From Syntrophorhabdaceae bacterium PtaU1.Bin034 (lineage in GTDB: Bacteria; Desulfobacterota_G; Syntrophorhabdia; Syntrophorhabdales; WCHB1-27), in assembly GCA_002067405.1 (NCBI GenBank), contig MVRP01000007.1, forward strand, positions 1-57,199: DNA of 57,199 nt. Reading direction: 5' to 3'. Below are positions 9,578 through 36,761 of the stretch, piece after piece (position 1 is the stretch's first letter; every line of letters begins with the position of its first letter). The notes below the pieces were generated by a model that was not told the DNA's origin, did not search any database, and saw nothing but the letters and a program-made list of their open reading frames with translations. Made by a program: the position numbers and the translations under genes.

Positions 9578-9590
9578 ATCTTAAAACTCC

Positions 9591-16588: not shown

Positions 16589-16840
16589 TCAACCCCCTGC
16601 CAGTATGACCAAGGTCACTTCCATCTCGTCCTTACCCTTTAGCGGAACATCATCCTCGTCATCAACCTTGTCATACTCGACGCCGTTCAAATAGACTTTG
16701 AAATCACCCCTGATTTCACCGTTTTCAGGCGAACGAATGGGATAACCAACCTTTTTCGATAATTCGGTCAACACCTTTTTCAGGGTCGGAGATTCCATCT
16801 CGAACACCACTTCACCAATAAAATTCGTTTTCACTATCAT
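16589..16840 (-). CDS. MoaD/ThiS-like small sulfur-carrier protein
   Basis: An 83-residue ubiquitin-fold protein ending in Gly-Gly (VILAGG), the feature by which MoaD and ThiS carry a thiocarboxylate. It begins MIVKTNFIGEVVFEME; FKVYLNGVEY and PLKGKDEMEVTLVILAGG match the beta-grasp core and C terminus. The start at 16840 has GGAGG nine bases upstream and is preferred to 16864. It lies 56 bp before moaA and downstream of the molybdenum hydroxylase, so a role in molybdopterin sulfuration is likely; a different sulfur-transfer role is possible. Confidence 0.75.
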   Translation of the reverse strand: MIVKTNFIGEVVFEMESPTLKKVLTELSKKVGYPIRSPENGEIRGDFKVYLNGVEYDKVDDEDDVPLKGKDEMEVTLVILAGG

Positions 16841-17057: not shown

Positions 17058-19418
17058 TTATTTTCCATGCTCTCTTAATGCCTTGAACATCCTTTCAGGC
17101 GTTACGGGAATCCTCATTACCCTGACGCCCGTTGCATCGTAGACCGCGTTGACCACTGCAGATATGACCGCAGCCCTTGCGCACTCTCCGGCTTCCTTGG
17201 CACCGAACGGCCCGTTCGGGTCGAAGTCACAACAATCAATCACTTCGATCTCGGGTATGTCGAAAGCCCTTGGTATTTCATAATCTACGAGGTTCGGGTT
17301 GAGGACACGCCCTTCGTCATCCATGATCTCTTCGTATAGAGCGTCACTCATCCCCTGAACCGCCTGGCTTATCATCTGCCCTCTTATGCCCGCCGAATTT
17401 ATCTCGAAGCCGCAGTCATCCGCGACCACTATCTTGAGGACACGGATCCTGCCCGTTTCCCTGTCGACTTCGACTTCAGCGGTAGACGCCGTAAAACCGT
17501 AGGCATCCGTAAACCTGCCGGTACCTCTTGAAAGGCTGGGGTAGAATTCGATCTCCGGGACCGCCTTCTTGTGCCCGTGTCCGATAAGCGGATCGCCGAG
17601 ATGCTTCTGGATGTGAAATCTCATAAGCTCCGTAAAACTGTAGGATCTCTTCGGGTTGCTCCTGAGAAATGCCATCTTGTCTTTAAGCTGTATGTCTTCC
17701 GGCTTTGCCCTCATTACTTCACATGCCACCTTGACGATCTTTTCTTTCAGGTCCATCGCGGCATTATAGACCGCCCCGCCTCCGACGAACATACCACCGC
17801 TCAGGAAGTTGCTGTAGTTCATCGGGCAAAGCTCTGAGTCGCTCGATATCAGCGTCACGTCCTCAACCTGCAGTCCAAGGCACTCTGCCGCGATCTGGCT
17901 GTAGGTGGTATCCGCACCCTGACCGAACTCGCAGTCGCCCTCCATAAGGGTGATCGTACCATCGTGGTTGAGCCTGACTATTGCCGTACACGCAAACGGC
18001 CAGTATCCGGAACCGCTGAACATGCCGTTGATGCCGATGCCCACGCCCCGGTTTTTGCCTCTCTGTTTGCCCCGTTTTTCCTTCCATCCTATAGCCTCGG
18101 CAGACCTCTTGATGGCCTCCGGCAGACCGTAGCTGTGGAGCGTGTCGCCGTTAGGAATGACGTCCCCTTTCTTTCTGAGATTCTTCAACAGGAACTCTAC
18201 GGGGTCCAGACCCAGGTCTTCGCAGATCTGGTCGTACTGTGAGTCAGCCGCAAGCCGCATCTGAGGGGCGCCGTGACCTCTTCTCGCGAAGTTGAAGTTC
18301 TTGTTCGTGTAGACGGCAACGCCTTCGTGCCTCACATTTTTGCGGTCGAGGCAGGAATCGCACATAGCGTGGCTCAAAAACATTGCAACCGGTGCGCTGC
18401 ATTTGTACGCCCCGGCATCAACAATCACGTTGCAGTGCTGGGCAACAATCGTCCCGTCCTTCTTCACGCCCGTTTTTATATTGATATCGAACCTGTGGCT
18501 GTTTCTGCATGACGAGAAGACTTCTTCTCTTGTCAGCTCTATCTTGACCGGCTTGCACAGCTTCCTCGCAAGAAAACCGCATATGACTTCGTAGTCGAAA
18601 CACGGAGCCTTCCCGCCGAATGCGCCACCAACGTACGTCTTGTGGATCCTTACCTTCGTAATGGGAATCCCCAGCGTCTTGTGCAGCCAGTACCGTTTCA
18701 ATTCGTAGGCCATGTGGTTCATCCACACGTCGAGCTTCTGCTCGAAAGGATCCCAACTCGCCACCATCGTGTGCGGCTCCATTGCCATGTGTGAGGTACC
18801 CGGGCTCCTGGAATGATCTTCCCGGATATAATCCGCTTCGGCAAACCCTTTCTCCACATCGCCGTATGCGACAAATGTCTTCGCGGCGATATTGTTGACC
18901 GGTTTGAAGGAATGCGACTTTCTCGCAACACCCCAGTCTTCCCACGCGCATGACGTGTTGCGGGTAATTTCGCCATGAATTTGAGGCGCGCCTTCTTTCA
19001 TCGCTTCAACAGGATCAAAGATGGGTTGAATAGGGTCATAGTCTACCTGGATGAGGTCCAGAGCGTCCTCCGCGGTATCAGGATCGACAGCGGCAACTGC
19101 CGCTACCGTCTCTCCTATGAAGCGGACCTTATCTTCAGCGATGGGTCGTTCCTCCGCCGGGTAGTTGGGGGTATCGACAAAACCGTATCTGATCCCCCAG
19201 GTGTCCTTCCCGGTGATCACTGCCACAACGCCGGGCAGCTTCTCGGCTTTGCTGGTGTCGATATTGAGGATCCTCGCGTGAGGGAGGGGACTTCTCAGCA
19301 GCTTCGCATAAAGCATGCCGGGAAGAAAAATGTCGGTCGTATATATTGCCTTGCCCGTGAGTTTGGCCTTGCCATCAACCCTCGGTAACGGTTTTCCTAC
19401 TACAGATAGCTCACTCAT
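17058..19418 (-). CDS. Molybdenum hydroxylase large (Mo-cofactor) subunit
   Basis: A 786-residue xanthine-dehydrogenase-family catalytic subunit, close in style to 4-hydroxybenzoyl-CoA reductase and CO dehydrogenase large chains. VGKPLPRVDGKAKLTGKAIY opens the fold; YVGGAFGGK (GGAFGGK at 264-270) and GQGADTTYSQIAAE are Mo-pterin segments; PFGAKEAGE near the C terminus supplies the catalytic Glu. The ATG at 19418 overlaps the 2Fe-2S subunit stop (ATGA); a frame from 19493 is rejected. Substrate specificity cannot be read from sequence. It could hydroxylate a heteroaromatic ring or reduce an aryl-CoA. Confidence 0.9.
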   Translation of the reverse strand: MSELSVVGKPLPRVDGKAKLTGKAIYTTDIFLPGMLYAKLLRSPLPHARILNIDTSKAEKLPGVVAVITGKDTWGIRYGFVDTPNYPAEERPIAEDKVRFIGETVAAVAAVDPDTAEDALDLIQVDYDPIQPIFDPVEAMKEGAPQIHGEITRNTSCAWEDWGVARKSHSFKPVNNIAAKTFVAYGDVEKGFAEADYIREDHSRSPGTSHMAMEPHTMVASWDPFEQKLDVWMNHMAYELKRYWLHKTLGIPITKVRIHKTYVGGAFGGKAPCFDYEVICGFLARKLCKPVKIELTREEVFSSCRNSHRFDINIKTGVKKDGTIVAQHCNVIVDAGAYKCSAPVAMFLSHAMCDSCLDRKNVRHEGVAVYTNKNFNFARRGHGAPQMRLAADSQYDQICEDLGLDPVEFLLKNLRKKGDVIPNGDTLHSYGLPEAIKRSAEAIGWKEKRGKQRGKNRGVGIGINGMFSGSGYWPFACTAIVRLNHDGTITLMEGDCEFGQGADTTYSQIAAECLGLQVEDVTLISSDSELCPMNYSNFLSGGMFVGGGAVYNAAMDLKEKIVKVACEVMRAKPEDIQLKDKMAFLRSNPKRSYSFTELMRFHIQKHLGDPLIGHGHKKAVPEIEFYPSLSRGTGRFTDAYGFTASTAEVEVDRETGRIRVLKIVVADDCGFEINSAGIRGQMISQAVQGMSDALYEEIMDDEGRVLNPNLVDYEIPRAFDIPEIEVIDCCDFDPNGPFGAKEAGECARAAVISAVVNAVYDATGVRVMRIPVTPERMFKALREHGK

Positions 19419-19906
19419 TTCTTCCCCTCCTTTCTCTTTCGCACTACATCCATAATAGTCTCGATATACTGTACGTAGCCCGTGCACCTGCACAGGTTTC
19501 CTTCCATGTCCCTTCTTATGTCTTCCTCCGTAGGGTCAGGCATCTCTTCCAGCATGGCCGTGGAGGACATCAGTTTCCCCGGAGTACAGAACCCGCACTG
19601 GAAAGCATTGTGCTCCAAAAATGCCTGCTGAAGGGGCGACAGCGTGCCGTCTTTCGAGGCCAGCCCCTCAACGGAGGTGACTTCCCTGCCGTTCACCTGC
19701 ATCGCGAGAACGGAGCAGGCCTTTACCGCCATTTTGTCAACTATCACGGTGCAGGCCCCGCAAGAATTATCCATACAGGCCTGCTTCGTGCCCGTTAAGC
19801 GCAATTCATTCCTCAACAGCTGAAGCAGTGTCGTTCTCGGTTTTATTGCAACCTCGTACGCTTCGCCATTAATCTTTACGTTTATCGCTTTTTTTGTGCT
19901 ATCCAT
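19415..19906 (-). CDS. Molybdenum hydroxylase 2Fe-2S subunit
   Basis: A 163-residue small subunit carrying two [2Fe-2S] clusters that pass electrons from the Mo site to FAD. The plant-ferredoxin-type cluster is in KQACMDNSCGACTV with a further Cys in KACSVLAMQ; the second all-helical cluster is in CGFCTPG and NLCRCTGY. Length and motif order match HcrC, CoxS and CutS-type subunits. It is coupled to the large subunit by a 4-nt overlap and lies 26 bp after the FAD subunit. Confidence 0.93.
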   Translation of the reverse strand: MDSTKKAINVKINGEAYEVAIKPRTTLLQLLRNELRLTGTKQACMDNSCGACTVIVDKMAVKACSVLAMQVNGREVTSVEGLASKDGTLSPLQQAFLEHNAFQCGFCTPGKLMSSTAMLEEMPDPTEEDIRRDMEGNLCRCTGYVQYIETIMDVVRKRKEGKK

Positions 19907-19932: not shown

Positions 19933-20805
19933 TTAAGCTCTCTTCGCTTTTTCGAAGGCCTCTTTGACCGCACGTTTCACAAGGACCTTCACGAGTTCTT
20001 TCCTGTATTCGGCTGAAGCGTGCACGTCCGAGGTGGGATCAGTTTCCGACGCGGCCGTAATTCCTGCTTCTTCAATCAGGGCATCGGTCAATTTCTTGCC
20101 TTTCAGCATCTCAGCCGCTTTCTTCGCAATAAGCGGAACCGGTGCAACCGCGCTCATGATAATTTTTGCGTCCTTGCATACATCGCTGCCCGGTTCTACC
20201 GTAATCGCGACAGAGGTCGATACTATCTTGATCCCTGCTTCTATCGTACTGAATTTCATGTACTCCACTGCCGTATCGGCAGCGGGAGGCGGAAGCTGGA
20301 TCTCGGCCAGTATCTCATCCGGTTCGATAACGGTAGTAAAGTAATCCTCAAAAAAGTTTTCGAGGGGCACTGTTCTTTCCCCTTTCGCCTTTACCAGCCT
20401 CAATTTTGCACCCAGGGCGATCAGCGAAGGCGCAGGGTCGCCGATAGGGTCGGCGCTGCAAAGATTACCTCCGATCGTGCCCCAATTGCGTGTCTGAACT
20501 GAAGCAACGCTCTTTTCCATTTCAGAAAGAACCGGGTATTTCTGCTTTATCAATTCAGATTTTTCAATTGCCCGGTGTGTGGTGAGCGCCCCCATTTTCA
20601 GACCGGTGCTCTCGTCAAATTTAATGTAGTCAAGTTCTTTGAGCCCCTTGATATCGATCAGACACGTCGGGCTGATAAGTTTCTGCCTGAGCAGCGTAAT
20701 GAGTGACTGCCCGCCCGCAAGTATCTTGCCCACATCCTTGTACTGGGAGATTAGAGAGCAAGCCTCTTGCAGACTGCCAGCTGGAAAATATTCGAAATCT
20801 TTCAT
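19933..20805 (-). CDS. Molybdenum hydroxylase FAD subunit
   Basis: A 290-residue FAD-binding medium subunit. ILAGGQSLITLLRQKL and TIGGNLCSADPIGDPAPSLIALGA are the two FAD pyrophosphate motifs of the CoxM/XdhB family, followed by the C-terminal CO-dehydrogenase flavoprotein domain. It starts 2 nt after the CoxG-like gene. No extra 4Fe-4S insertion of the 4-hydroxybenzoyl-CoA reductase beta type is visible (the protein is short and has few cysteines), so it resembles ordinary hydroxylases on that point. Confidence 0.92.
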   Translation of the reverse strand: MKDFEYFPAGSLQEACSLISQYKDVGKILAGGQSLITLLRQKLISPTCLIDIKGLKELDYIKFDESTGLKMGALTTHRAIEKSELIKQKYPVLSEMEKSVASVQTRNWGTIGGNLCSADPIGDPAPSLIALGAKLRLVKAKGERTVPLENFFEDYFTTVIEPDEILAEIQLPPPAADTAVEYMKFSTIEAGIKIVSTSVAITVEPGSDVCKDAKIIMSAVAPVPLIAKKAAEMLKGKKLTDALIEEAGITAASETDPTSDVHASAEYRKELVKVLVKRAVKEAFEKAKRA

Positions 20806-20807
20806 AG

Positions 20808-21266
20808 TTATTTCTCCTTATGTCCTTCGATTTTCTCTTTCACCGCGCTTATGAATTCTGCACCAATTTTCTTTGCCTGTGCCCGCATGATCCTGTCGCC
20901 GAATAACGCAATCCTGCCCACAACAGTGACGTTTGACGAGTATGAAACCTCGGTTTCGTCCTCCGATACTGCTCTGAGGTGAACATCACTCGATTGGTTA
21001 AAGCTGCCCGCCATGCCTAGGTCCGCCCCTTTGCCTTCCATATGGATATGTTTTGGCTCATCTATCTGGGTCAGCGACGTGGTGATCTTGAACTTTACTT
21101 TTATGGGTCCGACGCCGGCTTTTACGGTTGCCACATAGGTTCGACCATCTATCGCTTCGATGCTCTCGCAACCCGGGACACAACTTCCTATCTGATCGGG
21201 ATTGATAATGAACTCCCAGACCTTCTTAACAGGCGCATTCACGAGAAACTTTTCTTGAATCTCCAT
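20808..21266 (-). CDS. CoxG-like SRPBCC-domain protein
   Basis: A 152-residue START/Bet v1-fold protein of the carbon monoxide dehydrogenase subunit G family. APVKKVWEFIINPDQIGSCVPGCESIEAIDG is the family signature, then VKAGVGPIKVKFKI and a C-terminal helix. CoxG proteins accompany molybdenum hydroxylases and are thought to act in assembly or membrane recruitment. The ATG at 21266 fits family N termini; a GTG at 21281, close to an AAGGAG box, would add five residues. Its 5' end overlaps the small Cys-rich frame. Confidence 0.87.
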   Translation of the reverse strand: MEIQEKFLVNAPVKKVWEFIINPDQIGSCVPGCESIEAIDGRTYVATVKAGVGPIKVKFKITTSLTQIDEPKHIHMEGKGADLGMAGSFNQSSDVHLRAVSEDETEVSYSSNVTVVGRIALFGDRIMRAQAKKIGAEFISAVKEKIEGHKEK

Positions 21267-21417
21267 CTTGTAGATCCTCACCTCCTCCTTGTTCTTCCTT
21301 CTCCTTTTTGGCCTTGGCCTTTAACTCACCCGCAAGCAGGCACTGGTCTTCCCTCGGACATTTCCCTTTCTTCACAAACATGCATTCCTGCCTGCCGTAA
21401 AGACATTCGATCCTCAT
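21226..21417 (-). CDS. Small cysteine-rich protein of unknown function
   Basis: A 63-residue frame with four N-terminal cysteines spaced C-x6-C-x7-C-x5-C, plus two at the very end, and a Lys/Glu-rich middle (KAKAKKEKEEQ). AAGGAGG lies nine bases before the ATG, a good ribosome site. The 3' part overlaps the CoxG-like start by about 40 nt in another frame. The spacing suggests a metal or Fe-S site. I do not recognise the family; a truncated real reading frame or a chance ORF remains possible. Confidence 0.5.
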   Translation of the reverse strand: MRIECLYGRQECMFVKKGKCPREDQCLLAGELKAKAKKEKEEQGGGEDLQDGDSRKVSRECAC

Positions 21418-21476
21418 CCCCTGACACCTCCTTCCACGTATTTTTTATATCCACATGCTTTAAATTCTGTTTTGGT

Positions 21477-22415
21477 TTAATAGCCGAGGGCAAAATCGCC
21501 GATTGAGCGATCAATGGCGTGGCGTATCGCCTCTTCTATGACTTCCCTCGTTCTTTCCGTCACTTCCGAATCGGGCGACCCGCAGATCTCGGTCGCGGCA
21601 GCATCCGCTGCGTCAATGATCAGGTGGTCATCGATAGGATTGCCTTTCATTATCGCCGGCCCCTCCATTGATTCTATGGGTACATCCCCGATCCCACCCA
21701 CGACGATCCTTATGTCCTCGATATCGACGTGTTTAAGGTCGAGCCTGAGGAAAACAGCAACGCCTATACTGGGTTGGTCTCCTGTCCCGGCACTTTTCTC
21801 GTAGGTAAGGCCTACTTCACTTTCCTGCTGTTTGGGTATCCTTATCTCCGTGAGAACCTCGTATATGGCTCCATCCTTGCCGGCCGCAAGCAGGTCCTCT
21901 ATCGACATCGTTTCCCAGCCCTGAACCCCCTGCCGTACGGCCTTTGCGTCCAATACCATCAGGGCAGGGGCAATATCGGAGGCTCTTTCAGGGCTGAAGA
22001 GGCACCCGCCGATCGTCGCCATGTAATAGCCCCACCTGGCCTTGTTCACCCGATGCTCCCTCCGGTTAATCGCCTCGACCAGGACCCCTGCCTTTTCATT
22101 GATGATCTGTGAACTGCTCAGGTCAAAAAGGGTTGCACAGCTTCCTATCTTCACGCCCTCTTCCGCAAAATCGTTATACGGTTCGATGTAGTGCAGGTTC
22201 GGAATGCTCTTAAGGTTGATGAGATACTCAGGCGTTATCTTTCCCTCTTTCATCAAAGGGATGAGTTGTGTTCCGCCGCTGATCAGTTTTGCCTTTTCCT
22301 TGTGCTCTGCGAACATCGAACATGCTTCTTTCAGGGAATCAGGCTCCAGGTACTCACATGTGAAGGAGCTGCATTCTATGAAACTTGCTAAATCCTGAAA
22401 ATAACCTGAGCTCAT
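21477..22415 (-). CDS. Second, divergent molybdenum hydroxylase FAD subunit
   Basis: A 312-residue FAD-binding protein of the same family as the subunit at 19933, but clearly divergent. AKLISGGTQLIPLMKEGKI and TIGGCLFSPERASDIAPALMVLDA match the two FAD motifs, with SP replacing the usual SADP. It is the first gene of the operon. The ATG at 22415 has GGAGG five bases upstream. Two FAD subunits in one operon are unusual; one may serve a different electron partner, or form a second complex with shared subunits. Confidence 0.85.
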   Translation of the reverse strand: MSSGYFQDLASFIECSSFTCEYLEPDSLKEACSMFAEHKEKAKLISGGTQLIPLMKEGKITPEYLINLKSIPNLHYIEPYNDFAEEGVKIGSCATLFDLSSSQIINEKAGVLVEAINRREHRVNKARWGYYMATIGGCLFSPERASDIAPALMVLDAKAVRQGVQGWETMSIEDLLAAGKDGAIYEVLTEIRIPKQQESEVGLTYEKSAGTGDQPSIGVAVFLRLDLKHVDIEDIRIVVGGIGDVPIESMEGPAIMKGNPIDDHLIIDAADAAATEICGSPDSEVTERTREVIEEAIRHAIDRSIGDFALGY

Positions 22416-22434
22416 ATCCACCTCCAATTTTGGT

Positions 22435-22452
22435 AATCCCCGGTCGGGGATT
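22435..22452 (-). promoter_or_regulatory. Hairpin beside the ribosome site of the hydroxylase operon
   Basis: AATCCCC, a GGTC loop and GGGGATT form a perfect 7-bp stem about 10 nt upstream of the GGAGG of the first gene. It could affect translation initiation or message stability. No known riboswitch consensus was recognised around it. Confidence 0.4.
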
Positions 22453-22545
22453 TATGATCACATTGCGACAGTGCCGTAACGTTTCCTTGGATTTCCCTCT
22501 GTCTCGCGAATGTTTCCGTATTTGCGGCCCATGGCTGTAAAGATA

Positions 22546-22560
22546 GCAATTACAATGCCA
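22546..22560 (-). promoter_or_regulatory. Sigma-54 (-24/-12) promoter of the molybdenum hydroxylase operon
   Basis: On the minus strand TGGCAT, five bases, then TTGC gives the GG-N10-GC spacing of sigma-54 promoters. It lies about 130 nt before the start at 22415, inside the 450-bp gap downstream of an NtrC-type activator gene. It is the best regulatory match in the gap. Confidence 0.75.
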
Positions 22561-22644
22561 GGTGTTCTTTACTGGCAATCAGCCGGTAAATTGTTGGTAT
22601 TTTGGGTGTTTTTTTGTGATTGCGGGTTGCTATGATGAACGGAC

Positions 22645-22679
22645 GGATTGTAACTTCAGATGCACTATCGCGATTACAT
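22645..22679. promoter_or_regulatory. Candidate activator binding site (UAS) of the hydroxylase operon
   Basis: TGCACTATCGCGATTACAT (22661-22679) contains TGCA-N7-GATT, the same pattern as each arm of the palindrome at 25927-25962. An imperfect inverted half (TGTAACTTCAGATGCA) abuts it, making a dyad centred on TGCA. The site is about 100 bp upstream of the -24 element, a usual enhancer distance. A second inverted pair, GGTGTTTTTTT (22605) and AAAAAAACACC (22691), brackets the same stretch. Confidence 0.5.
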
Positions 22680-22865
22680 TCGTTCCTTCAAAAAAAACAC
22701 CGTGGTGATCGCCCGGTTGTTGGAGGTCTTGTAACTCTTTCTTATTATTTGGTTCTTCCCTGATTCATTCTGGCAGCCGCCTGTGCCGATCGAAGGCAGC
22801 AGACTTTCGAAAACGTGGTGTATCCCTGCGGTTTCATGTAACCTCGAGGATTCATATCAGCTCTC

Positions 22866-24266
22866 TTACATGTATTCTTCTTTTTTTATTTTATAGCGTT
22901 TCAGCATGCGCTGAATGGAAGGTCGTTGTACTTTTATCTCTTTGGCTGTTTTTGAAATATTACCCTGATAGTACTTCAGGGCGTCGACAAGGTATTCTTT
23001 CGTAAACTCATCCAGGCATCTTTTTCTCGCTTGCGGAAAGTCCATACGTAAAAGATCCATGTGCTCTTCCAGCCCTGCCGACCTTTTCAACTGCATCCTT
23101 TCCGGCAGATCGTGCACGGTTATTCTTCGCTGGGCTGCCGTAATAACAACCCTCTGCACCACGTTTTCCAGCTCTCTGACGTTGCCCGGCCATTCATATT
23201 CCTGAAAAAGTGCCAATACACTCCGGTCCACCACCAATTCTTTCTTATCGAACTGCTTTTTGAATTTATCGAGGAAGAAGTGCATCAAAGGCAATATGTC
23301 GTCCTTGCGGTGTCTTAGAGGGGGAATATCAATTTTTACGACGTTTATCCGGAAGTACAGATCTTCTCTAAATTTCCCTTCTCTCACGGCCTGCTCAAGA
23401 TTCCTGTTGGTTGCCGCAAGGATCCTCGTATCGACCTTGACCGGCTTCGTACCGCCGACAGGAATAATCTCGCGGTCCTGTACCATGCGCAGCAGCTTCC
23501 CCTGAAGTGACATGGGGAGTTCACTTATCTCATCAAGAAATATGGTCCCCTTGTCGGCGACCTTGAAATAGCCTTCCTTGTTCGCGTAAGCCCCGGTGAA
23601 CGCACCTTTCGTATACCCGAAGAGCTCGCTCTCCAAAAGACTTTCGGTGACCGCTGCGCAGTCGACGACGACGAAGGGATAATCGCGCCTCGGGCTGATG
23701 GAATGTATTGTCCGCGCCATCAGTCCTTTTCCGGTGCCGGTCTCTCCCTCGATGAGAACATTGCAGTCTATCGGTGAAATCTTTTGCACCAGGTCGAAGA
23801 TTCGCTGAACTTCGTCGCTCACGCCGACAAAGTCACGGTAACAGGAAACCTCCTTCAGTTGGTCCCTCAAGACGCCGATCTCACTTTTCAATGAAAAGGT
23901 CGTTTGAACATGCTCGACAACCTTGAGCAGTCGATCCACATCAAACGGCTTGGTGATATAGTCGTACGCACCCAGCTTCATGGCCTCCACTGCACCGTCC
24001 ACCGTTCCGTACCCCGTGATCATGACCACTTCTGTATGCGGGCGGATTTCTTTTATGCGCTCGAGCAGTTCCATGCCGTTGATCCCGGGCATCCGGATAT
24101 CGGCAATGACTAAAGAAAAATCATGCTTCTTCACCAGAAAAAGTGCCTTTTCACCGTCATTTGCCCCTTGCACGTGGTAATTCTTCTTCTGGAGCAATTG
24201 AACGCACCTGTCCCTGATGCTATCCTCATCGTCCACTATGAGGACACTGAATTTATCCTTTTTCAT
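22866..24266 (-). CDS. NtrC-family sigma-54-dependent response regulator
   Basis: A 466-residue activator. The receiver domain (1-120) has the acidic pair Asp12/13, phospho-acceptor Asp56 and Lys106. The AAA+ domain shows Walker A GETGTGKG at 174-181, the sigma-54 contact loop GAFTGA at 221-226, and the Walker B segment GTIFLDEISELP. A Fis-type helix-turn-helix ends the protein (GNISKTAKEIKVQRPSIQRMLKRY). It is 15 bp downstream of the histidine kinase gene. The two flanking sigma-54 promoters are its obvious targets. Confidence 0.95.
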   Translation of the reverse strand: MKKDKFSVLIVDDEDSIRDRCVQLLQKKNYHVQGANDGEKALFLVKKHDFSLVIADIRMPGINGMELLERIKEIRPHTEVVMITGYGTVDGAVEAMKLGAYDYITKPFDVDRLLKVVEHVQTTFSLKSEIGVLRDQLKEVSCYRDFVGVSDEVQRIFDLVQKISPIDCNVLIEGETGTGKGLMARTIHSISPRRDYPFVVVDCAAVTESLLESELFGYTKGAFTGAYANKEGYFKVADKGTIFLDEISELPMSLQGKLLRMVQDREIIPVGGTKPVKVDTRILAATNRNLEQAVREGKFREDLYFRINVVKIDIPPLRHRKDDILPLMHFFLDKFKKQFDKKELVVDRSVLALFQEYEWPGNVRELENVVQRVVITAAQRRITVHDLPERMQLKRSAGLEEHMDLLRMDFPQARKRCLDEFTKEYLVDALKYYQGNISKTAKEIKVQRPSIQRMLKRYKIKKEEYM

Positions 24267-24281
24267 ATGGCTACCCTTCAG

Positions 24282-25775
24282 CTAACTTCTCTCGAAACCC
24301 CGTGCAACCGGAAGACTTATGGCAAATGAAGCTCCGCGTGGAAGATTTCTGACCGACAGCTTCCCCCCGTGTTCCTCTATGATCCTCTTGCTCACCGCGA
24401 GGCCCAGACCTGTCCCATTTGGCTTGGTGGTAAAAAAAGAATCAAAAATTCGCTCGATTATATCTCTTGGAATACCTTTGCCCGTGTCACTGATTTCAAT
24501 GTATGCCCACTTCCTTCGGTCGCCGTCTTTTACGTACGTCTTTATGGTAATTTCACCCCTATCCGGTACAATTACCTCCCGGGCGTTGTTGACGATATTG
24601 ATGACTACCTGCTGAAGGTTGTTCGCGTTGCCCCTCACATGTATTTCGTTCTCGGAAAAATGCCTCCTTATATCGATATTCTCCAGTCTCGCCTGGCGTT
24701 GAACGAGCAGGAGAGAGTCCTCGATCATATTATGGATGTTCAGCATCGTCCTTTCTGCCGGAACCCTCTTGGCGAAGTTGAGCACCTTCCCGATGACTCT
24801 CCTGCATCTGCTCGCGTCGTTTTCCATTTCCTTGAGCTCTTTGAGCAAAGGCTTCTTTTGAATGCGTCCTTTTTTCTCCAGGTCTTCAATCAACATCTGG
24901 ATCGCAATAATCAGACCACCCAGAGGGTTGTTGATCTCGTGGGCTATCTCACCCGCCATTTTCCCCAGCAGCGTCATTTTCTCGGATTGAAAAAGCGCCT
25001 GCTTGAGATCGTTTATCTCGGTGACATCCGTAATAACATTTATTAAGCCCCTGCCGCTCTCGGCCTCGCGCATGCACGATGAACTGACGAGAACCGTTAT
25101 CTTTCTGCTGTCTTTTGTCACAAGGGTAGTTTCAAAAACCTTCTTGCCTCCTCCCTGCTCGACATCACCCATATATACCGCAACTCGCTCGAGAGCCTCT
25201 TTTGCAATAAATGCACCGTAATGTCTCCCGATGATCTCTTCACGCCGATACCCTATGATCTCCCCGAACCTGCTGTTTACATAAGTGATGGTTCCGAATT
25301 CATCCAGTATCTGGATGCCGTCGTTCAGCGAGGCAACAACATTCTCATAAAATTCCTTAAGCCTGCCGATCTCGCGTTCTGCCTCTTCTTTTTCCTTGTC
25401 CAGTGTCAAGTCCGTCGCAACCCCTATCATCCCCACGGTTCTTCCATCTTCATCCCTGGCAGGTATGCAGATGACAAAAGCGGGAAATCTCTCCCCCGAC
25501 TTTCTCCGCAGTGAAATTTCTCCACGAAAGGTATTTCCGTTCCTTATATTCGCGAGGACATTTGGCTGAATGGCTCCGAGCATCGCTATATGTCTACCGA
25601 TAACCTCCTCCTGCGTATAAAGGAAGAGTTCTTCCGAGCCTTTGTTGAAGAATGCCATTTTCCCTTTCAGATCTGTTACGATGAAAGACTCAATGAGATT
25701 TTCAACGATATCTTCGAGGAATTGACGCGTGGTCCGTTTGAAGCCAAGAATTATGTTTTCCCAGTCTAGCGACAT
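24282..25775 (-). CDS. Cytosolic PAS-domain sensor histidine kinase
   Basis: A 497-residue kinase without membrane segments. Two PAS domains occupy about 15-125 and 140-255 and probably bind the inducer or sense redox. The H-box is EIAHEINNPLGG with His279. ATP-binding boxes are present: N (VVINIVNNAREV), G1 (ISDTGKGIP), F (FDSFFTTK) and G2 (GTGLGLAV). It forms an operon with the NtrC-type regulator and is transcribed away from the TRAP operon. The lack of a periplasmic domain suggests an intracellular signal such as the imported acid or its CoA ester. Confidence 0.94.
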   Translation of the reverse strand: MSLDWENIILGFKRTTRQFLEDIVENLIESFIVTDLKGKMAFFNKGSEELFLYTQEEVIGRHIAMLGAIQPNVLANIRNGNTFRGEISLRRKSGERFPAFVICIPARDEDGRTVGMIGVATDLTLDKEKEEAEREIGRLKEFYENVVASLNDGIQILDEFGTITYVNSRFGEIIGYRREEIIGRHYGAFIAKEALERVAVYMGDVEQGGGKKVFETTLVTKDSRKITVLVSSSCMREAESGRGLINVITDVTEINDLKQALFQSEKMTLLGKMAGEIAHEINNPLGGLIIAIQMLIEDLEKKGRIQKKPLLKELKEMENDASRCRRVIGKVLNFAKRVPAERTMLNIHNMIEDSLLLVQRQARLENIDIRRHFSENEIHVRGNANNLQQVVINIVNNAREVIVPDRGEITIKTYVKDGDRRKWAYIEISDTGKGIPRDIIERIFDSFFTTKPNGTGLGLAVSKRIIEEHGGKLSVRNLPRGASFAISLPVARGFERS

Positions 25776-25926
25776 CCTCTTCCCACCCGGAAAACAATCT
25801 TTAGCGAATGTATAGTGAAGTCAAGCATTGATGCACCTATTTTGTCAAACAGTTCAAGCAGCCAGGTGTGTTTTTATCATAAAAAACCATAAAATACAAG
25901 GAGTTACAATTAAGTTCCGGTTACCG

Positions 25927-25962
25927 TGCATCTCTCGGATTGCATGTAATCCGAGAGATGCA
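25927..25962. promoter_or_regulatory. Perfect 15-bp palindrome, candidate activator site
   Basis: TGCATCTCTCGGATT and AATCCGAGAGATGCA pair perfectly around GCATGT, in the 670-bp gap between the divergent kinase and TRAP genes. Each arm holds TGCA-N7-GATT, shared with the region upstream of the molybdenum hydroxylase operon. It lies about 285 bp before the TRAP sigma-54 box. No T-tract follows, so an operator or enhancer is more likely than a terminator. The rest of the gap is AT-rich and shows no gene. Confidence 0.6.
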
Positions 25963-26245
25963 GAACTCACACGGGTATTCAGCACGCTCCCTTTATTGAT
26001 CTATCGACACCCTCTCACAACAGAGGCACCACGATTCACTATGCCGAACACCGCCGATAACAAAAGCATCAAATAAAACATAGCCGGCCGACAGACGGCG
26101 AAGAGGAAAGCAATAACCGGGATATTTTCCTGTATCCCCCTGGTTACACGATAGGGATAGACATGGGCGTGACGCGCCGTCGATTCTTGGCTTGAAAGCG
26201 ATAACAACAGGTAATTATTATGTTTTTTCGACAGGCCCGGCAAGG

Positions 26246-26260
26246 TGGCATGGAGTTTGC
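26246..26260 (+). promoter_or_regulatory. Sigma-54 (-24/-12) promoter of the TRAP/ligase operon
   Basis: TGGCAT, GGAGT, TTGC gives GG-N10-GC spacing with T following, a good sigma-54 box about 185 nt before the DctQ start. Together with the box at 22546-22560 it places both catabolic operons under the neighbouring NtrC-type activator. Confidence 0.75.
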
Positions 26261-26444
26261 TCCCTTTCCTGAAACAACGAATCATGAGCTTCCGGGACGC
26301 CAGGCAAGAATATCATGCACTTGTTCAACAGACAACAATTGCTGAAGGTCGGATACAGAGAACGAGGACCGGCCTGATGAGACAGATAGAATAGGTGCTC
26401 CGTATTCCAACCAGGCACTGATAGTGCGAGCGCCCAAAGGAGGT

Positions 26445-26936
26445 ATGGTGAATAGTAGATTGGATCAATTTCTCCGATTCGTGACCGGCATTCTCAATCA
26501 TATAGGCAGCACGGCCCTCACCGTTATGATGCTCCTGACGGTAACCGACGTGATCATGCGTGCCTTCGGCCACCCCATTATCGGGACCTTTGAGATTGTT
26601 GGCTTACTGCTGGCATTCGTTGTCGGTTTTACTATCCCGAAGGTCTCCTACGACAGGGGGCATGTGTTTATGGAAATTGTCCTCGAAAGGCTGGGCCAGA
26701 GGAGAAGGGACGTGCTGAACACCTTTACCCGCGTCATTGCTTTCCTGCTTTTTGCCGCCGTAGGATACAAGCTCTTTGGCGCCGCTCACGAATTCCGCAT
26801 TTCAGGCGAAGTTTCTCCGACCCTCGAGATTCCCTTTTATCCCGTGGCATACATGGTCGGCGTATGCTGCTTTATTGAATGTCTCGTATTTATCAATGAT
26901 ATAGCCAAGATATGGAGAGGAGACTACCATGAATGA
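26445..26936 (+). CDS. dctQ: TRAP transporter small membrane subunit (DctQ)
   Basis: A 163-residue four-helix inner-membrane protein that joins the large permease DctM in sodium-driven uptake of organic acids. Hydrophobic segments lie at about 18-38, 50-70, 94-114 and 130-150; FGHPIIGTFEIVGLLLAFVVGFTIP is typical of the family. AAAGGAGGT directly abuts the ATG at 26445, so the GTG one codon later may be the true start. Its stop overlaps dctM by 8 nt. Confidence 0.9.
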   Translation: MVNSRLDQFLRFVTGILNHIGSTALTVMMLLTVTDVIMRAFGHPIIGTFEIVGLLLAFVVGFTIPKVSYDRGHVFMEIVLERLGQRRRDVLNTFTRVIAFLLFAAVGYKLFGAAHEFRISGEVSPTLEIPFYPVAYMVGVCCFIECLVFINDIAKIWRGDYHE

Positions 26937-28227
26937 ACTGATAGGGATTGTAATGCTCTTTTTGCTCCTGCTCCTTTTTGCTACCGGTATCGAGCTCGGC
27001 TTTGCCATGGCGGTCATCGGCTTCATGGGCTTTGCCTACCTTAACGGCGTTCCGCAAGCCATGAACCTCCTTGCAAGGGACATGTTCGATGTAATGACAA
27101 ATTACGGCTACACGGTCTTTCCCCTCTTTATACTGATGGGACAGATCGGTTTCCATACCGGCATCGCACAGCGGCTCTATGCCTGTTCAAATAAGTTCAT
27201 AGGCCACATTCCCGGCGGTCTCGCCATGGCCACCGTTGTCGGGGGCAGCGCCTTCAAGGCCATTTGCGGCTCGGCAACAGCCACAACGGCAACTTTTGCA
27301 AGTGTTGCGATGCCTGAAATGGACCGTTACGGGTATGACAAAAGACTCTCGACAGGGGTCATTGCAACAGTGGGAACCCTCGGTTGCCTCATACCGCCGA
27401 GCGTGGTCCTCATCCTTTACGGCGTTATCACCGAGCAGTCGATCGGAAGGCTTTTTCTCGCCGGAGTGGTCCCCGCAACAATAATAGCGTTGTTCTTCAT
27501 GGGCATTATCTACGGATGGGTGAGGATGAACCCGGCTATCGCACCCGTATCGGAACGCGCAGGATGGAAGGAGAGAGTGCGGAGCCTTCCCGAGGTGATC
27601 TGGGTCCTTATCATCTTTCTCCTCATGATAGGGGGTATTATGCAGGGATTCTTTACCCCTTCAGAGGCAGGGGCTGTGGGAGCATTTGCGATACTCATCC
27701 TTGCCCTGGCCAAGCGCGATCTGACGTTCAGGAAATACCTGACCTCGCTCACCGAAGCCATTCGTACGGCAGGGATGTTTCTCATGCTTCTGGCAGGCTC
27801 GGCGATACTGGGCCATTTCATCGCCGTGACCAATATCCCTCAGAACACCGCGGAGTGGCTCGTTTCATTGCCTGTTAACCGATATCTTATCCTGATCGGC
27901 ATTTGTATTATTTTTGAGCTTGGCGGTTCCTTCATCGAAGACCTTGCATTCATGATCCTTGCCCTGCCTATTTTCTATCCGACGATCGTCAAGCTCGGCT
28001 TTGACCCCATCTGGTTCGCGGTCGTCATTTGCGTGATTATCATGGTGGGGATGGTCATCCCGCCGGTGGCCATTTGTGTCTTTGTCGTAAAAAATATCAC
28101 CAAGGTGCCGATAGGCCAAATATATAGAGGGTGCGCGCCGTTCCTGATCGCTCTCATAATCTGCTGGGGCATTGTCCTCTTCATCCCGCAGCTTTCCCTC
28201 TGGCTTCCCTCGTTGTTTTTTAAATGA
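26929..28227 (+). CDS. dctM: TRAP transporter large permease (DctM)
   Basis: A 432-residue integral membrane protein with about 12 hydrophobic segments, the ion-coupled translocation subunit. GSAFKAICGSATATTATFASVAMPEM and the IPPSVVLILYG segment are the strongly conserved TRAP-M cores, and FFTPSEAGAVGAF is the repeated second core. It is translationally coupled to dctQ. The transported compound is not predictable from this subunit. Confidence 0.95.
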   Translation: MNELIGIVMLFLLLLLFATGIELGFAMAVIGFMGFAYLNGVPQAMNLLARDMFDVMTNYGYTVFPLFILMGQIGFHTGIAQRLYACSNKFIGHIPGGLAMATVVGGSAFKAICGSATATTATFASVAMPEMDRYGYDKRLSTGVIATVGTLGCLIPPSVVLILYGVITEQSIGRLFLAGVVPATIIALFFMGIIYGWVRMNPAIAPVSERAGWKERVRSLPEVIWVLIIFLLMIGGIMQGFFTPSEAGAVGAFAILILALAKRDLTFRKYLTSLTEAIRTAGMFLMLLAGSAILGHFIAVTNIPQNTAEWLVSLPVNRYLILIGICIIFELGGSFIEDLAFMILALPIFYPTIVKLGFDPIWFAVVICVIIMVGMVIPPVAICVFVVKNITKVPIGQIYRGCAPFLIALIICWGIVLFIPQLSLWLPSLFFK

Positions 28228-28395: not shown

Positions 28396-29457
28396 ATGAT
28401 AAGAAAGGTTCTGGTAGCGGTATGTCTCTTTTCAGCTCTTTCGCTTTTGGGTGTGCCAACCGGCCGAGCGGACGTGATCAGACTGAAGTTTGCCAATTAC
28501 ATGCCAATTATGCATACCAACACGATAGTCATGGGCAAGTTCGTCGATGAGGTGAACAAAAAGCTGGCCGGCAGGGTGGAGATAACCATGTACTCGGCGG
28601 GTACGCTCCTTACAGCGCCCAAAATGGCTGCCGGCGTGGCGTCCGGCATCGCCGACATCGGTCTTTCGCACTGTTCGTACTCGAGGGGCCGCTTCCCCGT
28701 CATGGAGCTAACGGAATTACCCTTCGGTGCTTCGAGCAGCTTTATACTCACCAACGCGATCAATGATTTTTACAATAAATTCAAGCCCAAAGAATGGGAT
28801 GCCTATCACCCTCTCCTGTTCGGCGCAAGCTCTCCCTCCACCATACAAACACTTGGTAAGCCGGTAAAAACGCTGGAGGACCTCAAGGGATTGAAGATAA
28901 GGGGTACCGGCCGGAGCGGGGAGATCGTCAAAGCCCTGGGTGCGATCACGACACCGGTCGAGATGATGGATATGTATGAATCCCTGAGACGAGGTGTCAT
29001 AGACGGGAACATGGGTCCCTACGAGCAGTTGAAAAGCTTCAGGACGGGCGAGGTGTTAAAGTACCATAGCGTGGCCTGGCAGGCCGGCAGCGGCTATACC
29101 TTCTATGTAGTCGCCAACAAGAACAAATGGAACAGCCTTCCGGCGGACGTCAAACAGGTCATCGACGAAACAGCCAAGAAATATATCGAGCCGTGGGGAA
29201 TCGGATATAACAAGGTGGATCTGGACGGTCTGGAATTCTTCAAACAGCAGGGCGGCCAGGTCATACCGATCCCCGACGCGGAGATCAAGAGATGGCTCAC
29301 GGCCGTGGAGCCGGTCATTGCCAAATACAAGCAGGACATGATCGCCAAAGGTTTCAAGGGAGAAGATGTCGACGCCTGGATCAAGTTCCTGAAGGAACGG
29401 ATCGCATACTGGACGACCCAGGAGAAGGCAAGGAAGATACCGACCGCATATAACTGA
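28396..29457 (+). CDS. dctP: TRAP transporter periplasmic solute-binding protein (DctP)
   Basis: A 353-residue exported receptor. Residues 1-25 form a Sec signal peptide, with a likely cut after GRA. The mature part shows LEDLKGLKIRGTGRSGEIVKALGA, containing the Arg that usually grips the ligand carboxylate, and VWQAGSGYTFYVVANKNKWNSLP. Ribosome site AAAGGAGG. The ligand is inferred to be a carboxylate, since a CoA ligase follows. A GGAGTTCTTGA direct repeat and a small hairpin (about 28312-28334) lie in the 168-bp gap after dctM. Confidence 0.93.
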   Translation: MIRKVLVAVCLFSALSLLGVPTGRADVIRLKFANYMPIMHTNTIVMGKFVDEVNKKLAGRVEITMYSAGTLLTAPKMAAGVASGIADIGLSHCSYSRGRFPVMELTELPFGASSSFILTNAINDFYNKFKPKEWDAYHPLLFGASSPSTIQTLGKPVKTLEDLKGLKIRGTGRSGEIVKALGAITTPVEMMDMYESLRRGVIDGNMGPYEQLKSFRTGEVLKYHSVAWQAGSGYTFYVVANKNKWNSLPADVKQVIDETAKKYIEPWGIGYNKVDLDGLEFFKQQGGQVIPIPDAEIKRWLTAVEPVIAKYKQDMIAKGFKGEDVDAWIKFLKERIAYWTTQEKARKIPTAYN

Positions 29458-29499
29458 GCAACGAATTTCCGACTTCATCGTATAACGCGAGGTGTGCTT

Positions 29500-30819
29500 A
29501 TGCCGAAGATAAAAATGTGGAGACCCGAATTAGAGACGTTACCGAGGGAAGAGTTAGAGAAATTGCAGTTGAAGCATTTCAGGAAACAGATGAAGTATGT
29601 GATGGAAAAGAGCCCTTTTTACAGAAAGAAGTTTACGGCGGCCGGGGTAACGCCGGACGACATCAAGACTATGGACGATGTGAGGCGGGTGCCCTTTACC
29701 ACGAAGCAGGAATTATTGAAGTCGCAGGAGGAACATCCGATCTTCGGTGATTTTCCCTGCATCAGGCCGGAACAGGCGACGAGGGTATTTCAGACGTCAG
29801 GGACGACCGGGAAGCCTTTGAAGATCCCCTTGAGCAAAAAGGACTGGTTCAAGACCTATTATGAGCAGTTCAGTTACTATCTTTGCGGTTACGGAATTAA
29901 CCGTAAGGATGTCGCATTCTTCCCCTTCACCTACGGGACTTTCATAGCCTGGTGGGGCGTCCAGGCTGTGATGGAACAGCACGGGATCACCATAGTCCCG
30001 GGCGGGGGCCAGACCTCAGACGCACGGGTGAAAAGCATTGTGGACTGGGAGGCCACGGTTGTATGCGGGACGCCGACTTACATCATCTATCTTGGAGAAT
30101 TGGCGAAGAAGCTGGGGATCGATCTTCCCAATTCGAAGGTGAGGGTCGTTATTACGGCCGGCGAGCCGGGCGCACAGGTTGCCGCAACGAAACATCTCGT
30201 AGAGAGCCTGTACGGAGCGAAGAACTATGACGATATAGGGAGCACGGAGATATCGAACTTCGGATTCGAATGCGTGGTGCAGAAAGGCACGCACATGGTT
30301 GAAAGCATGTTCCTGCCGGAGTCTCTCGACACGGAGACGCTAAAGCCCGTGACCGAAGGCGAAGTCGGTGAGCTTGTGCTGTCAAACCTTTTCTGCGAAA
30401 GCGCGCCCCTCTTACGCTACATGACAAAAGACCTCGTGCGGTTCAACTATCGGAAATGCGATTGCGGAAGGACATTCCTGCGGATGGACGGCGGTGTACT
30501 GGGGCGGGCAGACGATATGTTTACCTTTGGCGGGGTCAATATCTTCCCCTCGGCGGTTGAAAATTTCATCAGGGGAATACCGTCGTTTTCTAACGAATAC
30601 CAGTTGGTTATCCCCGAGCAAGGCTCGGGAAAGAGAATGATCATACGGGTCGAACCGGCAAACGGCGATATGTCCGATCAACAGATGAGAAATGCGATAA
30701 AGGAGCTGTCGGACAGTATCGTCTACAACATAAAAATTACGGCTGATATCCAATTGGTTGCTCCGGGGACCTTGCCGCGGTTCGAAGGAAAGGCAAAAAG
30801 AGTCATCCGGGCAAATTGA
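29500..30819 (+). CDS. Phenylacetate-CoA-ligase-like AMP-forming acyl-CoA ligase
   Basis: A 439-residue member of the PaaK branch of the adenylating enzymes. FQTSGTTGKPLKIPLSK near residue 100 is the ATP phosphate loop; TAGEPG, DDIGSTEIS and GRADDMFTFGGVNIFPSAVENFI are the later core motifs, and the C-terminal lid has PRFEGKAKRV. The TRAP receptor upstream and the SDR and thiolase downstream suggest it activates the imported acid to its CoA ester. The aryl versus alkyl preference is unknown. The start at 29500 has GAGGTG in front. Confidence 0.88.
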   Translation: MPKIKMWRPELETLPREELEKLQLKHFRKQMKYVMEKSPFYRKKFTAAGVTPDDIKTMDDVRRVPFTTKQELLKSQEEHPIFGDFPCIRPEQATRVFQTSGTTGKPLKIPLSKKDWFKTYYEQFSYYLCGYGINRKDVAFFPFTYGTFIAWWGVQAVMEQHGITIVPGGGQTSDARVKSIVDWEATVVCGTPTYIIYLGELAKKLGIDLPNSKVRVVITAGEPGAQVAATKHLVESLYGAKNYDDIGSTEISNFGFECVVQKGTHMVESMFLPESLDTETLKPVTEGEVGELVLSNLFCESAPLLRYMTKDLVRFNYRKCDCGRTFLRMDGGVLGRADDMFTFGGVNIFPSAVENFIRGIPSFSNEYQLVIPEQGSGKRMIIRVEPANGDMSDQQMRNAIKELSDSIVYNIKITADIQLVAPGTLPRFEGKAKRVIRAN

Positions 30820-30911
30820 CCACGTCTTTTACAGGGTGCGGGTAATAACTCCGGGACAGGCACCATCCGCACCATTAAATGCGCGTCGCACGACTGGGGA
30901 GGTTCGCTATC

Positions 30912-31667: not shown

Positions 31668-31697
31668 CGCACAAGACTTTATTAGCAGGAGGAATCA

Positions 31698-36558: not shown

Positions 36559-36761
36559 CATACCCTTCTTCGGAATTGTCGCTTCACCCACAGTTTCTTG
36601 CCTTCTTTACCGGCGCGACGGTTCAGGTTTCAAACAGCCCCACACCCCTGACAAAAGGTCTCTCATTCTCCATACGATCCCTCCCGGGTTTGATTGAGAC
36701 AATCATCCATGTGAATCCGTGCCGACAGATATTACAATTAATAGGGAGGAGCAGTTACGAG

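Follow-up and report, generated by a model that had tools for sequence, protein, structure and literature searches.

A candidate sigma-54 two-component system linked by a shared enhancer layout to two operons with a probable role in organic-acid import, CoA activation and oxidation

The window, that is, the whole stretch of 57,199 bp analysed here, holds a histidine kinase and an NtrC-type response regulator between two outward-reading operons. From the sequence, we give a probability of about 85% to the reading that this pair would be the dedicated activator of both sigma-54 operons, whose products would import, CoA-activate and oxidise an organic acid; the likely function is a coordinated run of these three steps on an acid that is probably aromatic. 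The evidence for joint control is an enhancer layout shared by the two promoters and not their flanking position. The kind of control is ordinary and of an already known type, and no published paper on this gene cluster was present among the literature matches listed. The window was compared with 46 genomes (the class and the order of genome G001 give the same set), 8 with the kinase and 38 without it. The close relatives with the kinase (G001, G015 and G036-G040) are draft genomes from one order and are not independent.

The sigma-54 boxes and the kinase/regulator pair

A preliminary description had placed two GG-N10-GC boxes at 22546-22560 (minus) and 26246-26260 (plus), and both were confirmed. 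The sigma-54 -24/-12 box of the molybdenum-hydroxylase operon, TGGCATTGTAATTGCT (22545-22560, minus strand), and that of the TRAP transporter operon, TGGCATGGAGTTTGCT (26246-26261, plus strand), contain the GG-N10-GC core, are intergenic and read outward from the kinase/regulator pair, about 130 bp ahead of the likely ATG at 22415 and about 160 bp ahead of the GTG at 26424, respectively. With a sigma-54 matrix of assumed weights, they scored 14.6 bits (rank 3) and 16.9 bits (rank 2) on both strands of the 57,199 bp. Three sites of at least 14 bits were observed versus 0.73 expected per window in 40 order-1 Markov shuffles, and two of at least 16 bits versus 0.13. The score by itself exceeds chance only moderately, and the case for both boxes is carried by position and conservation. 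The top-scoring textbook box, at 53293-53308 (plus), has no TGTAWC-N6-GWTACA enhancer and belongs elsewhere.

It is scarcely credible that the boxes arose as chance matches and that ordinary sigma-70 promoters drive the operons. About 0.7 sigma-54 sites of at least 14 bits would be expected per window by score alone, and seven sigma-70-like sites lie in 22300-26500, one of them a 10/12 match at 26192-26221 (plus), but seven is the chance level (mean 5.2, sd 2.3), and no other element measured in the intergenic region of the molybdenum side is as conserved as its sigma-54 box (0.95, vs 0.67 in the rest of the region).

The pair had also been described as standing between two operons that read away from it, which is borne out in the window: the regulator (22866-24266) and the kinase (24282-25775) are both encoded on the minus strand between the two boxes. 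The regulator consists of a receiver, an AAA+ domain with the GAFTGA motif and a Fis-type HTH (PF00072, PF00158 and PF02954, all over cut-off). Together with the presence of enhancer-like sites ahead of a -24/-12 promoter, these domains identify it as a predicted sigma-54 activator of the NtrC family. The kinase has two PAS domains followed by HisKA and HATPase_c, and its hydropathy showed no transmembrane stretch (top 19-residue mean 1.13). A profile search of the genome contigs with the kinase alignment gave one close match among at least 80 loci, which were mostly unrelated kinases. The best NCBIfam neighbours of the pair are AtoS and AtoC, which have other target genes and whose cut-offs were missed (251 of 646 bits and 414 of 714 bits). 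DctB is a membrane-spanning kinase, and the window kinase, with its two PAS domains and the hydropathy given above, does not fit the DctB/DctD type, in which the kinase spans the membrane and has a periplasmic sensor. According to an excerpt of PMC4482717, DctB/DctD and MifS/MifR are likewise pairs of a kinase and an NtrC-family regulator, which activate an organic-acid transporter through sigma-54 and so control dicarboxylate or alpha-ketoglutarate uptake. The window system differs from them in that its kinase has no membrane-spanning stretch, that its transporter is of the TRAP type and that the same regulator probably also switches the operon of a molybdenum enzyme.

The two outward-reading operons

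The minus-strand operon begins with a first FAD-binding (CoxM-type) subunit (21477-22415, the likely start being the ATG at 22415 of an ORF reaching 22427), followed by a CoxG-like protein (20808-21281), a second FAD-binding subunit of 290 aa (19933-20805), a 2Fe-2S subunit (19415-19906) and a molybdopterin subunit of the xanthine oxidase family (17058-19418, with the likely start ATG at 19418 in an ORF extending to 19493), as assigned by domain and family searches. Downstream on the same strand are an 83-aa ORF ending in LAGG (16589-16840) and MoaA for molybdenum cofactor synthesis (15558-16532). The 83-aa ORF resembled MoaD/ThiS by eye only and had no Pfam match; its counterparts in the close relatives match it at 62-77%. 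The Glu of the GAKE motif is the catalytic residue in this enzyme family, and its presence, along with the molybdenum-binding domains and the 2Fe-2S and FAD subunits, places the enzyme among the molybdenum hydroxylases of the xanthine oxidase family.

The closest solved relative of the molybdopterin subunit is the alpha subunit of 4-hydroxybenzoyl-CoA reductase (1rm6, 429 bits), with the GAKE motif kept. The name of that reductase was rejected for the window enzyme, for which all three NCBIfam equivalog scores fell below cut-off: alpha 614 of 995 bits, gamma 159 of 258 bits, and beta 118 of 405 bits with the second FAD subunit and 67 with the first. Compared with HcrABC, the window has two FAD subunits, CoxG and a small MoaD-like ORF, and its FAD subunit is shorter and only partly aligned. 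The FAD subunit of 4-hydroxybenzoyl-CoA reductase bears a 4Fe-4S-binding insertion; the second FAD subunit of the window has 290 residues versus 324 and only 4 Cys, and its best aligned stretch with 1rm6_B stops at residue 116, observations that bear on the insertion only indirectly.

The plus-strand operon encodes the TRAP small permease DctQ (26424-26936), the large permease DctM (26929-28227) and the solute-binding protein DctP (28396-29457), followed by a PaaK-type CoA ligase (29494-30819), a short-chain dehydrogenase (SDR, 30879-31667) and a thiolase (31698-32900). All three transporter components were above the Pfam cut-off, as expected of a TRAP transporter, and the NCBIfam scores were 315 of 268 bits (dctM), 76 of 50 bits (TRAP_S1) and 88 of 175 bits (dctP, TIGR00787). 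The ligase stayed under the equivalog cut-off of phenylacetate-CoA ligase PaaK (TIGR02155, 268 of 646 bits). Of the 46 genomes, 24 gave thiolase matches, yet the 8 kinase-bearing ones gave none.

DctP is related to the PDB entries 4nap/4pgn, which we take to be Dde_0634. Dde_0634 binds indoleacetate, as stated in an excerpt of PMC9973260, and by this kinship indoleacetate was considered as the substrate and remains a lead. Judged by annotation only, the annotated ORFs of the two operons include no counterpart of the later iaa enzymes given in an excerpt of PMC8360864. Desulfatiglans anilini can be likened to the present case through its proteins overabundant on aniline versus phenol; the section of the source concerned does not place the ligase and TRAP genes or describe a shared regulator.

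A common enhancer at both promoters

One palindromic enhancer of 18 bp, TGTAWC-N6-GWTACA, is common to both promoters and is arranged in the same layout: going upstream from the box, one site is met at about 100-115 bp and a back-to-back pair at about 275-320 bp. At the molybdenum promoter, the distal sites TGAATCCTCGAGGTTACA (22837-22854, minus strand) and TGAAACCGCAGGGATACA (22819-22836, minus strand) abut each other, while the proximal site (22649-22666, minus) is decayed, with only the half GTTACA at 22649-22654 clean and a spacer 2 shorter. The counterpart of this decayed site is exact in G001, G036, G037, G038 and G040, with 1 mismatch in G039 and 2 in G015. At the TRAP promoter, the abutting distal sites TGCATCTCTCGGATTGCA (25927-25944, plus strand) and TGTAATCCGAGAGATGCA (25945-25962, plus) have 3 and 2 mismatches, and the proximal site TGTATCCCCCTGGTTACA (26131-26148, plus) is exact. 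The inverted repeat at 25930-25959 was considered as a terminator and, by eye, rejected; it consists of the abutting pair of distal sites also present in the relatives.

The 18-bp consensus was refined with both promoters already in view, and the exact 18-mer was not found in G013, G015 and G039. For an enhancer matrix trained solely on the molybdenum promoters of 6 relatives, the four top-ranking sites of the 57-kb window all fell within these two intergenic regions, and ranks 3 and 4 (26131 and 25945) belong to the TRAP promoter, which was absent from the training; the TRAP site scored 18.2, a value exceeded by a site of 20.3 in 1 of 100 shuffled windows. The composite of half-enhancer and box, GTTACAN{77,103}TGGCAYNNNNNYTGCW, had exactly two matches in the window, both at these boxes, and none in 100 shuffles. 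Because this composite was drawn up after the sites had been seen, the scan of the 46 genomes is the fairer test. There, half-site plus box at 77-103 bp gave 13 matches in 6 of the 8 kinase-bearing genomes, 11 of the 13 at these promoters, versus 5 matches in 5 of the 38 genomes without the kinase; the reversed control gave 0 in all 46. Two further occurrences of half-site plus box were rejected as extra regulon members: at G036:C252 the best palindrome has 2 mismatches and the box is followed by a different receiver-domain gene, and G040:C255 has no palindrome within 2 mismatches.

Promoter elements were conserved at 0.83-0.95 versus 0.67 in the remaining intergenic region (8 sequences). In G001, G036 and G040, the likeness of the two promoters between proximal site and box either matched that of shuffles or reached the top of their range, which may be a faint trace of their common origin.

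A different factor might bind the palindrome, which would then merely mark the promoters, the boxes being real and the neighbouring regulator not their activator. Binding by this regulator is predicted from sequence, and the 38 kinase-free genomes hold 24 exact 18-mers (in 15 genomes) versus 10 of the reversed control; the palindrome is therefore not private to this regulator, and similar sites may serve other proteins. Also, G037 and G040 have two conserved copies in common that sit away from any strong box. Against this explanation, the sites stand in tandem at NtrC-like enhancer distances from the box, and half-site plus box is concentrated in the kinase genomes as counted above. Moreover, the regulator HTH is nearly identical across the window and all seven close relatives, whereas that of G013 differs and the G013 promoter has no enhancer site within 3 mismatches. 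We hold a different factor to be very unlikely.

Conservation of the promoters in relatives

Conservation of the boxes in syntenic loci had been named as a check, and it held in the close relatives and failed in one distant genome. All 7 close relatives have the molybdenum-side box between the regulator gene and the first FAD gene, 4 of them exactly as TGGCATAATAATTGCT, and box and enhancers are present at this promoter in all 7, partly degenerate in one; in the distant G184, the regulator-FAD junction lacks a box. Of the close relatives, 5 have a TRAP/ligase promoter, and in all 5 box and enhancer sites precede the TRAP and/or ligase genes, with the first site weak in G037. Behind this promoter are the orthologous TRAP and ligase genes in G001 and G037, another TRAP and then the ligase in G036, another TRAP before the contig end in G040, and the ligase directly in G038. 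The flanking arrangement itself is absent in the close relatives, where the transporter/ligase operon, if present, follows the molybdenum genes downstream and shares their strand.

In the distant G364, the genes for FAD, FeS and molybdenum subunits, ligase and TRAP transporter follow one sigma-54 box beside the kinase and regulator, and the same functions run in succession in G045, where both this kinase and a strong box are absent. An outward sigma-54 box on the far side of the G364 kinase precedes apparent type IV pilin genes (domains found); an identical box in the distant G224 is followed by two ORFs of matching sizes (182 and 425 aa). Flanking position was rejected as evidence of joint control, since an equally outward box can precede pilin-like genes. 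Joint control, which the preliminary description had offered as an inference, is instead supported because the same enhancer layout occurs at both promoters and accompanies each operon in the close relatives, even though the transporter/ligase operon is placed differently there, and because the functions run in succession behind one box in G364 and also in G045.

The regulator might serve the adjacent molybdenum operon only, with the TRAP box served by an NtrC-type activator encoded elsewhere. Boxes near the pair can belong to other systems, such as the G364 box before the pilin-like genes, and in G001 and G037 one more box, lacking the enhancer, lies downstream of the ligase. This explanation is unlikely, however, as the window and every close relative that has the TRAP/ligase promoter show this enhancer there in an unchanged layout. 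Moreover, the 8 kinase genomes contain 16 exact 18-mers (reversed control 2), 11 of them at the two promoters; the other 5, outside the cluster in G037 and G040, include none at enhancer distance from a box of at least 13.

Proposed mechanism and meaning

If the pair is the common activator, the cytosolic two-PAS kinase would respond to a signal inside the cell, the substrate or its CoA ester being the probable one, and would phosphorylate the regulator, as is known of the family. The regulator would then bind the 18-bp palindromes upstream of each box, and its GAFTGA loop, again by analogy with the family, would open the sigma-54 polymerase at both boxes. The TRAP transporter would import the acid, the PaaK-type ligase would make the CoA thioester and the molybdenum hydroxylase would carry out the oxidation.

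The genes found behind box and enhancer are the molybdenum operon, TRAP-ligase, another TRAP-ligase, the ligase alone, and TRAP-ligase-SDR-thiolase. We tentatively suggest, as a somewhat doubtful extension, that box and three-site enhancer form a portable cassette holding regulon membership while the genes behind it swap, and that it also marks a so far undescribed anaerobic route, in which a molybdenum hydroxylase containing two flavin subunits would oxidise a probably aromatic acid after its CoA activation, with a cytosolic sensor in control.

A guess based on position has become a defined candidate regulon with a predicted 18-bp operator and a fixed promoter layout, and regulon membership can be traced even where gene order is not conserved. 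The candidate regulon is usable for finding further pathway genes in relatives and for identifying the substrate; any inducer common to both promoters would probably be the compound that the transporter, the ligase and the molybdenum enzyme are for.

The two-component locus and its sigma-54 boxes

The histidine kinase (24282-25775, minus; two PAS domains, HisKA and HATPase_c) and the NtrC-type regulator (22866-24266, minus; receiver, AAA+ and HTH domains) lie between two operons. Leftwards of the regulator, the molybdenum-hydroxylase (Mo) operon on the minus strand encodes, in order, an FAD subunit, a CoxG-like protein, a second FAD subunit, a 2Fe-2S subunit, a molybdopterin subunit, an 83-residue ORF and MoaA. 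Rightwards of the kinase, the TRAP operon on the plus strand encodes DctQ, DctM, DctP, a PaaK-type CoA ligase, an SDR and a thiolase. The two outward sigma-54 boxes of the preliminary description, one per operon, were present and both intergenic: TGGCATTGTAATTGCT (22545-22560, minus) heads the Mo operon and ranked third in the window by score, and TGGCATGGAGTTTGCT (26246-26261, plus) heads the TRAP operon and ranked second. On score alone, the excess of such sites in the window was modest (3 sites of at least 14 bits versus 0.73 expected), and the top-scoring site, at 53293-53308 (plus), heads another gene.

The latter site is a textbook box, TGGCACAGCTGTTGCT, about 100 bp upstream of a kinase-like ORF (53395-54252) without a Pfam match, from which two ORFs, receiver-like by eye (52283-52666 and 52720-53109, minus), diverge. 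The window has a GC content of 53.7% (57,199 bp) and its Mo subunit is 88% identical to a protein named Syntrophorhabdus sp. PtaU1.Bin058; judged by sequence, its source is a Syntrophorhabdus-like bacterium. The Mo operon carries two different FAD-binding subunits and the CoxG-like protein (19933-22427, minus), and its 83-residue ORF (16589-16840, minus), MoaD-like by eye, ends in LAGG; this set is repeated in the close relatives. Elsewhere in the window, a diadenylate-cyclase domain ORF (36576-37355, plus) had the haloarchaeal DacZ model as its best NCBIfam match, at 137 of 430 bits and far under the cut-off, and tryptophan biosynthesis genes (chorismate-binding, GATase, phosphoribosyl transferase, IGPS, PLP-dependent synthase and TrpA) occupy 7711-13273 (minus).

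Conservation of the boxes in relatives

Among 46 genomes of the order around Deltaproteobacteria bacterium UBA5758 (G001), the kinase was found in eight (E <= 1e-60, at most the best 33 candidates per genome scored), namely seven close genomes (77-79% identity) and G013 (59%); it is in two pieces in G038 and a fragment at the contig end in G040. The Mo-side box was located at the orthologous junction in all seven close genomes (G001, G015, G036, G037, G038, G039 and G040), reading exactly TGGCATAATAATTGCT in G036, G037, G039 and G040 and lying, in G015, on a contig whose start covers the 3' end of the regulator gene. G013 carries the variant TGGCATATTTTCTGCT.

The transporter/ligase operon does not lie on the far side of the kinase in the relatives whose sequence covers its place. 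In G001 and G037, the orthologous operon (DctP 77-78%, ligase 82-83% identity) shares its strand with the Mo operon, lies downstream of it and is preceded by a box of its own, TGGCATAGAATTTGCT. The box TGGCATGAATATTGCT precedes another TRAP set (DctP 41%) and a ligase ortholog (83%) in G036, and another TRAP set (42%) at the contig end in G040, while TGGCATAGAACTTGCT in G038 has the ligase (85%) directly behind it. In G001, G037 and G038, the other TRAP set stands directly behind the small ORF of the Mo operon, with no box of at least 10.5 ahead of it. The sequences of G015 and G039 stop short of this promoter. Both boxes are therefore kept in the close relatives (Mo side in 7/7, TRAP/ligase side in G001, G036, G037, G038 and G040), but the flanking of the regulator by the two operons, as first described, does not extend to those whose sequence covers the place of the second operon. 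A further sigma-54 box, TGGCATGCATATTGCT, without the enhancer described below, lies downstream of the ligase at L167:11363-11378 and L168:8971-8986; in L167, the locus covered by the ORF scan, it stands where a DUF6600/FecR-domain ORF starts.

A shared enhancer in both promoters

Alignment of the Mo promoters revealed conserved blocks away from the box, and the same words were seen on aligning the TRAP promoters. The common word is an 18-bp palindrome, TGTAWC-N6-GWTACA, a candidate site of the regulator. In the Mo promoters, it starts at -317/-299/-112 relative to the box in G001, G036, G038 and G040, within 2 bp of this in G037 and G039, and at -305/-285/-114 in G015, with low scores (9.8 and 9.3) for two of the three sites. 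The TRAP promoters have it at -319/-301/-115 in the window, -307/-289/-101 in G001, -308 (weak, 6.9)/-290/-101 in G037, -299/-281/-103 in G036 and -310/-292/-113 in G040, and the ligase promoter of G038 at -310/-292/-103. In the window's Mo promoter, the distal pair is at -294/-276 with one mismatch each, and the proximal enhancer has decayed to the half-site GTTACA.

A matrix was trained on 18 Mo-promoter sites from six relatives, with the window and the TRAP promoters excluded; its four best sites in the window were at 22837 (21.4), 22819 (20.1), 26131 (18.2) and 25945 (13.1). Against 100 shuffled windows, three sites scored at least 14 versus 0.23 expected and four at least 13 versus 0.48, and one shuffled window had a single site of 20.3. 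The box at 53293-53308 has no enhancer of this type within 3 mismatches. Exact 18-mers occurred 16 times in 5/8 kinase genomes, 11 of them at Mo/TRAP promoters (reversed control 2). Since 24 exact copies were found in 15 of the 38 kinase-less genomes (reversed control 10), several being an identical word in four genomes, the bare palindrome is also present elsewhere. The half-site followed by a box at 77-103 bp matched 13 times in 6/8 kinase genomes (11 at Mo/TRAP promoters, 2 at an unrelated promoter) and five times in 5/38 kinase-less genomes, with no reversed-control match in 46 genomes; it misses G039, where the half-site reads GTGACA, and has no match in G013.

The promoters of one genome were compared without gaps in six genomes, with 200 shuffles each. 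The likeness of Mo and TRAP/ligase promoters between the distal and proximal sites was inside the shuffle range in 5/6 genomes and equal to the maximum in G037; between the proximal site and the box, G036 equalled the maximum and the other five stayed inside the range, with G001 and G040 close to its top. Because the stretches between the shared elements are mostly at shuffle likeness, these elements, on sequence grounds, are not remnants of a fresh duplication, and near the box a faint trace of common origin may persist. Over eight sequences, G013 excluded, conservation was 0.83-0.95 in the elements and 0.67 in the remaining intergenic region. The regulator HTH hardly varies among the window and the seven close relatives but differs in G013, whose promoter has no enhancer site within 3 mismatches.

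Gene association in distant relatives

Of 395 genomes sampled evenly across the phylum, at least seven, four of them outside the order, had the kinase (E <= 1e-110, 3 candidates per genome scored). In G364 (kinase 49-50%, regulator 47% identity), a single box beside the regulator is followed on one strand by FAD, FeS and Mo subunits (the latter 44%), ligase (59%), DctP, DctQ and DctM. G224 has the box, FAD, FeS and Mo subunits before its contig ends; unlike G013, G364 and G224, G184 has no box of at least 9 between the regulator and FAD genes (L193:9226-9540), and the 3.8-kb contig of G156 stops inside the regulator. G045, without a kinase match, has FAD, FeS and Mo subunits (41%), DctQMP and ligase (74%) consecutively on one strand, with no box of at least 13 and no enhancer match with fewer than 2 mismatches in the 20-kb locus. 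The gene runs of G364 and G045 suggest that transporter, ligase and Mo enzyme tend to associate irrespective of arrangement. The SDR/thiolase region behind the ligase (30879-32900, plus) seems to be a module appended in the window's genome, since thiolase matches (best 84%) occur in 24/46 genomes of the order but in 0/8 with the kinase. On the other side of the same kinase, a sigma-54 box TGGCACATCTATTGCT faces pilin-like genes at L194:13723-13738 and L195:6689-6704 (domain search of L194 alone), a trap for inference from position.

Substrate and mode of control

The nearest solved structure to the Mo subunit is 4-hydroxybenzoyl-CoA reductase (429 bits), but the window's three subunits miss the family cut-offs and its FAD subunit, besides being shorter, contains few cysteines. 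A CoA ester is considered more likely to be oxidised (hydroxylated) than reduced. The ligase resembles PaaK but scores below the PaaK cut-off, and an aromatic or heteroaromatic acid is our best guess for the substrate.

Sigma-54 two-component systems that govern the transport of organic acids, such as DctBD and MifSR, are classical (PMC4482717), and a survey has associated sigma-54 activators with the transport of carboxylates (PMC3162934). Regulators adjoining catabolic modules in Desulfobacteraceae are described as mostly single-component activators, e.g. sigma-54-dependent (PMC11887813), whereas the window has a two-component pair. The control type is thus already known, and the candidate operator is unusually well defined.

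Hydropathy reveals no membrane-spanning stretch in the kinase, so sensing probably takes place intracellularly, consistent with an imported or activated substrate as the putative inducer. From the genes, boxes, sites, layout and conservation observed, we infer that the regulator, once phosphorylated, would occupy the proximal site as well as the distal pair and use looping to activate sigma-54 polymerase. With the proximal site of its Mo promoter decayed, the window is predicted to have different activation thresholds at its Mo and TRAP promoters.
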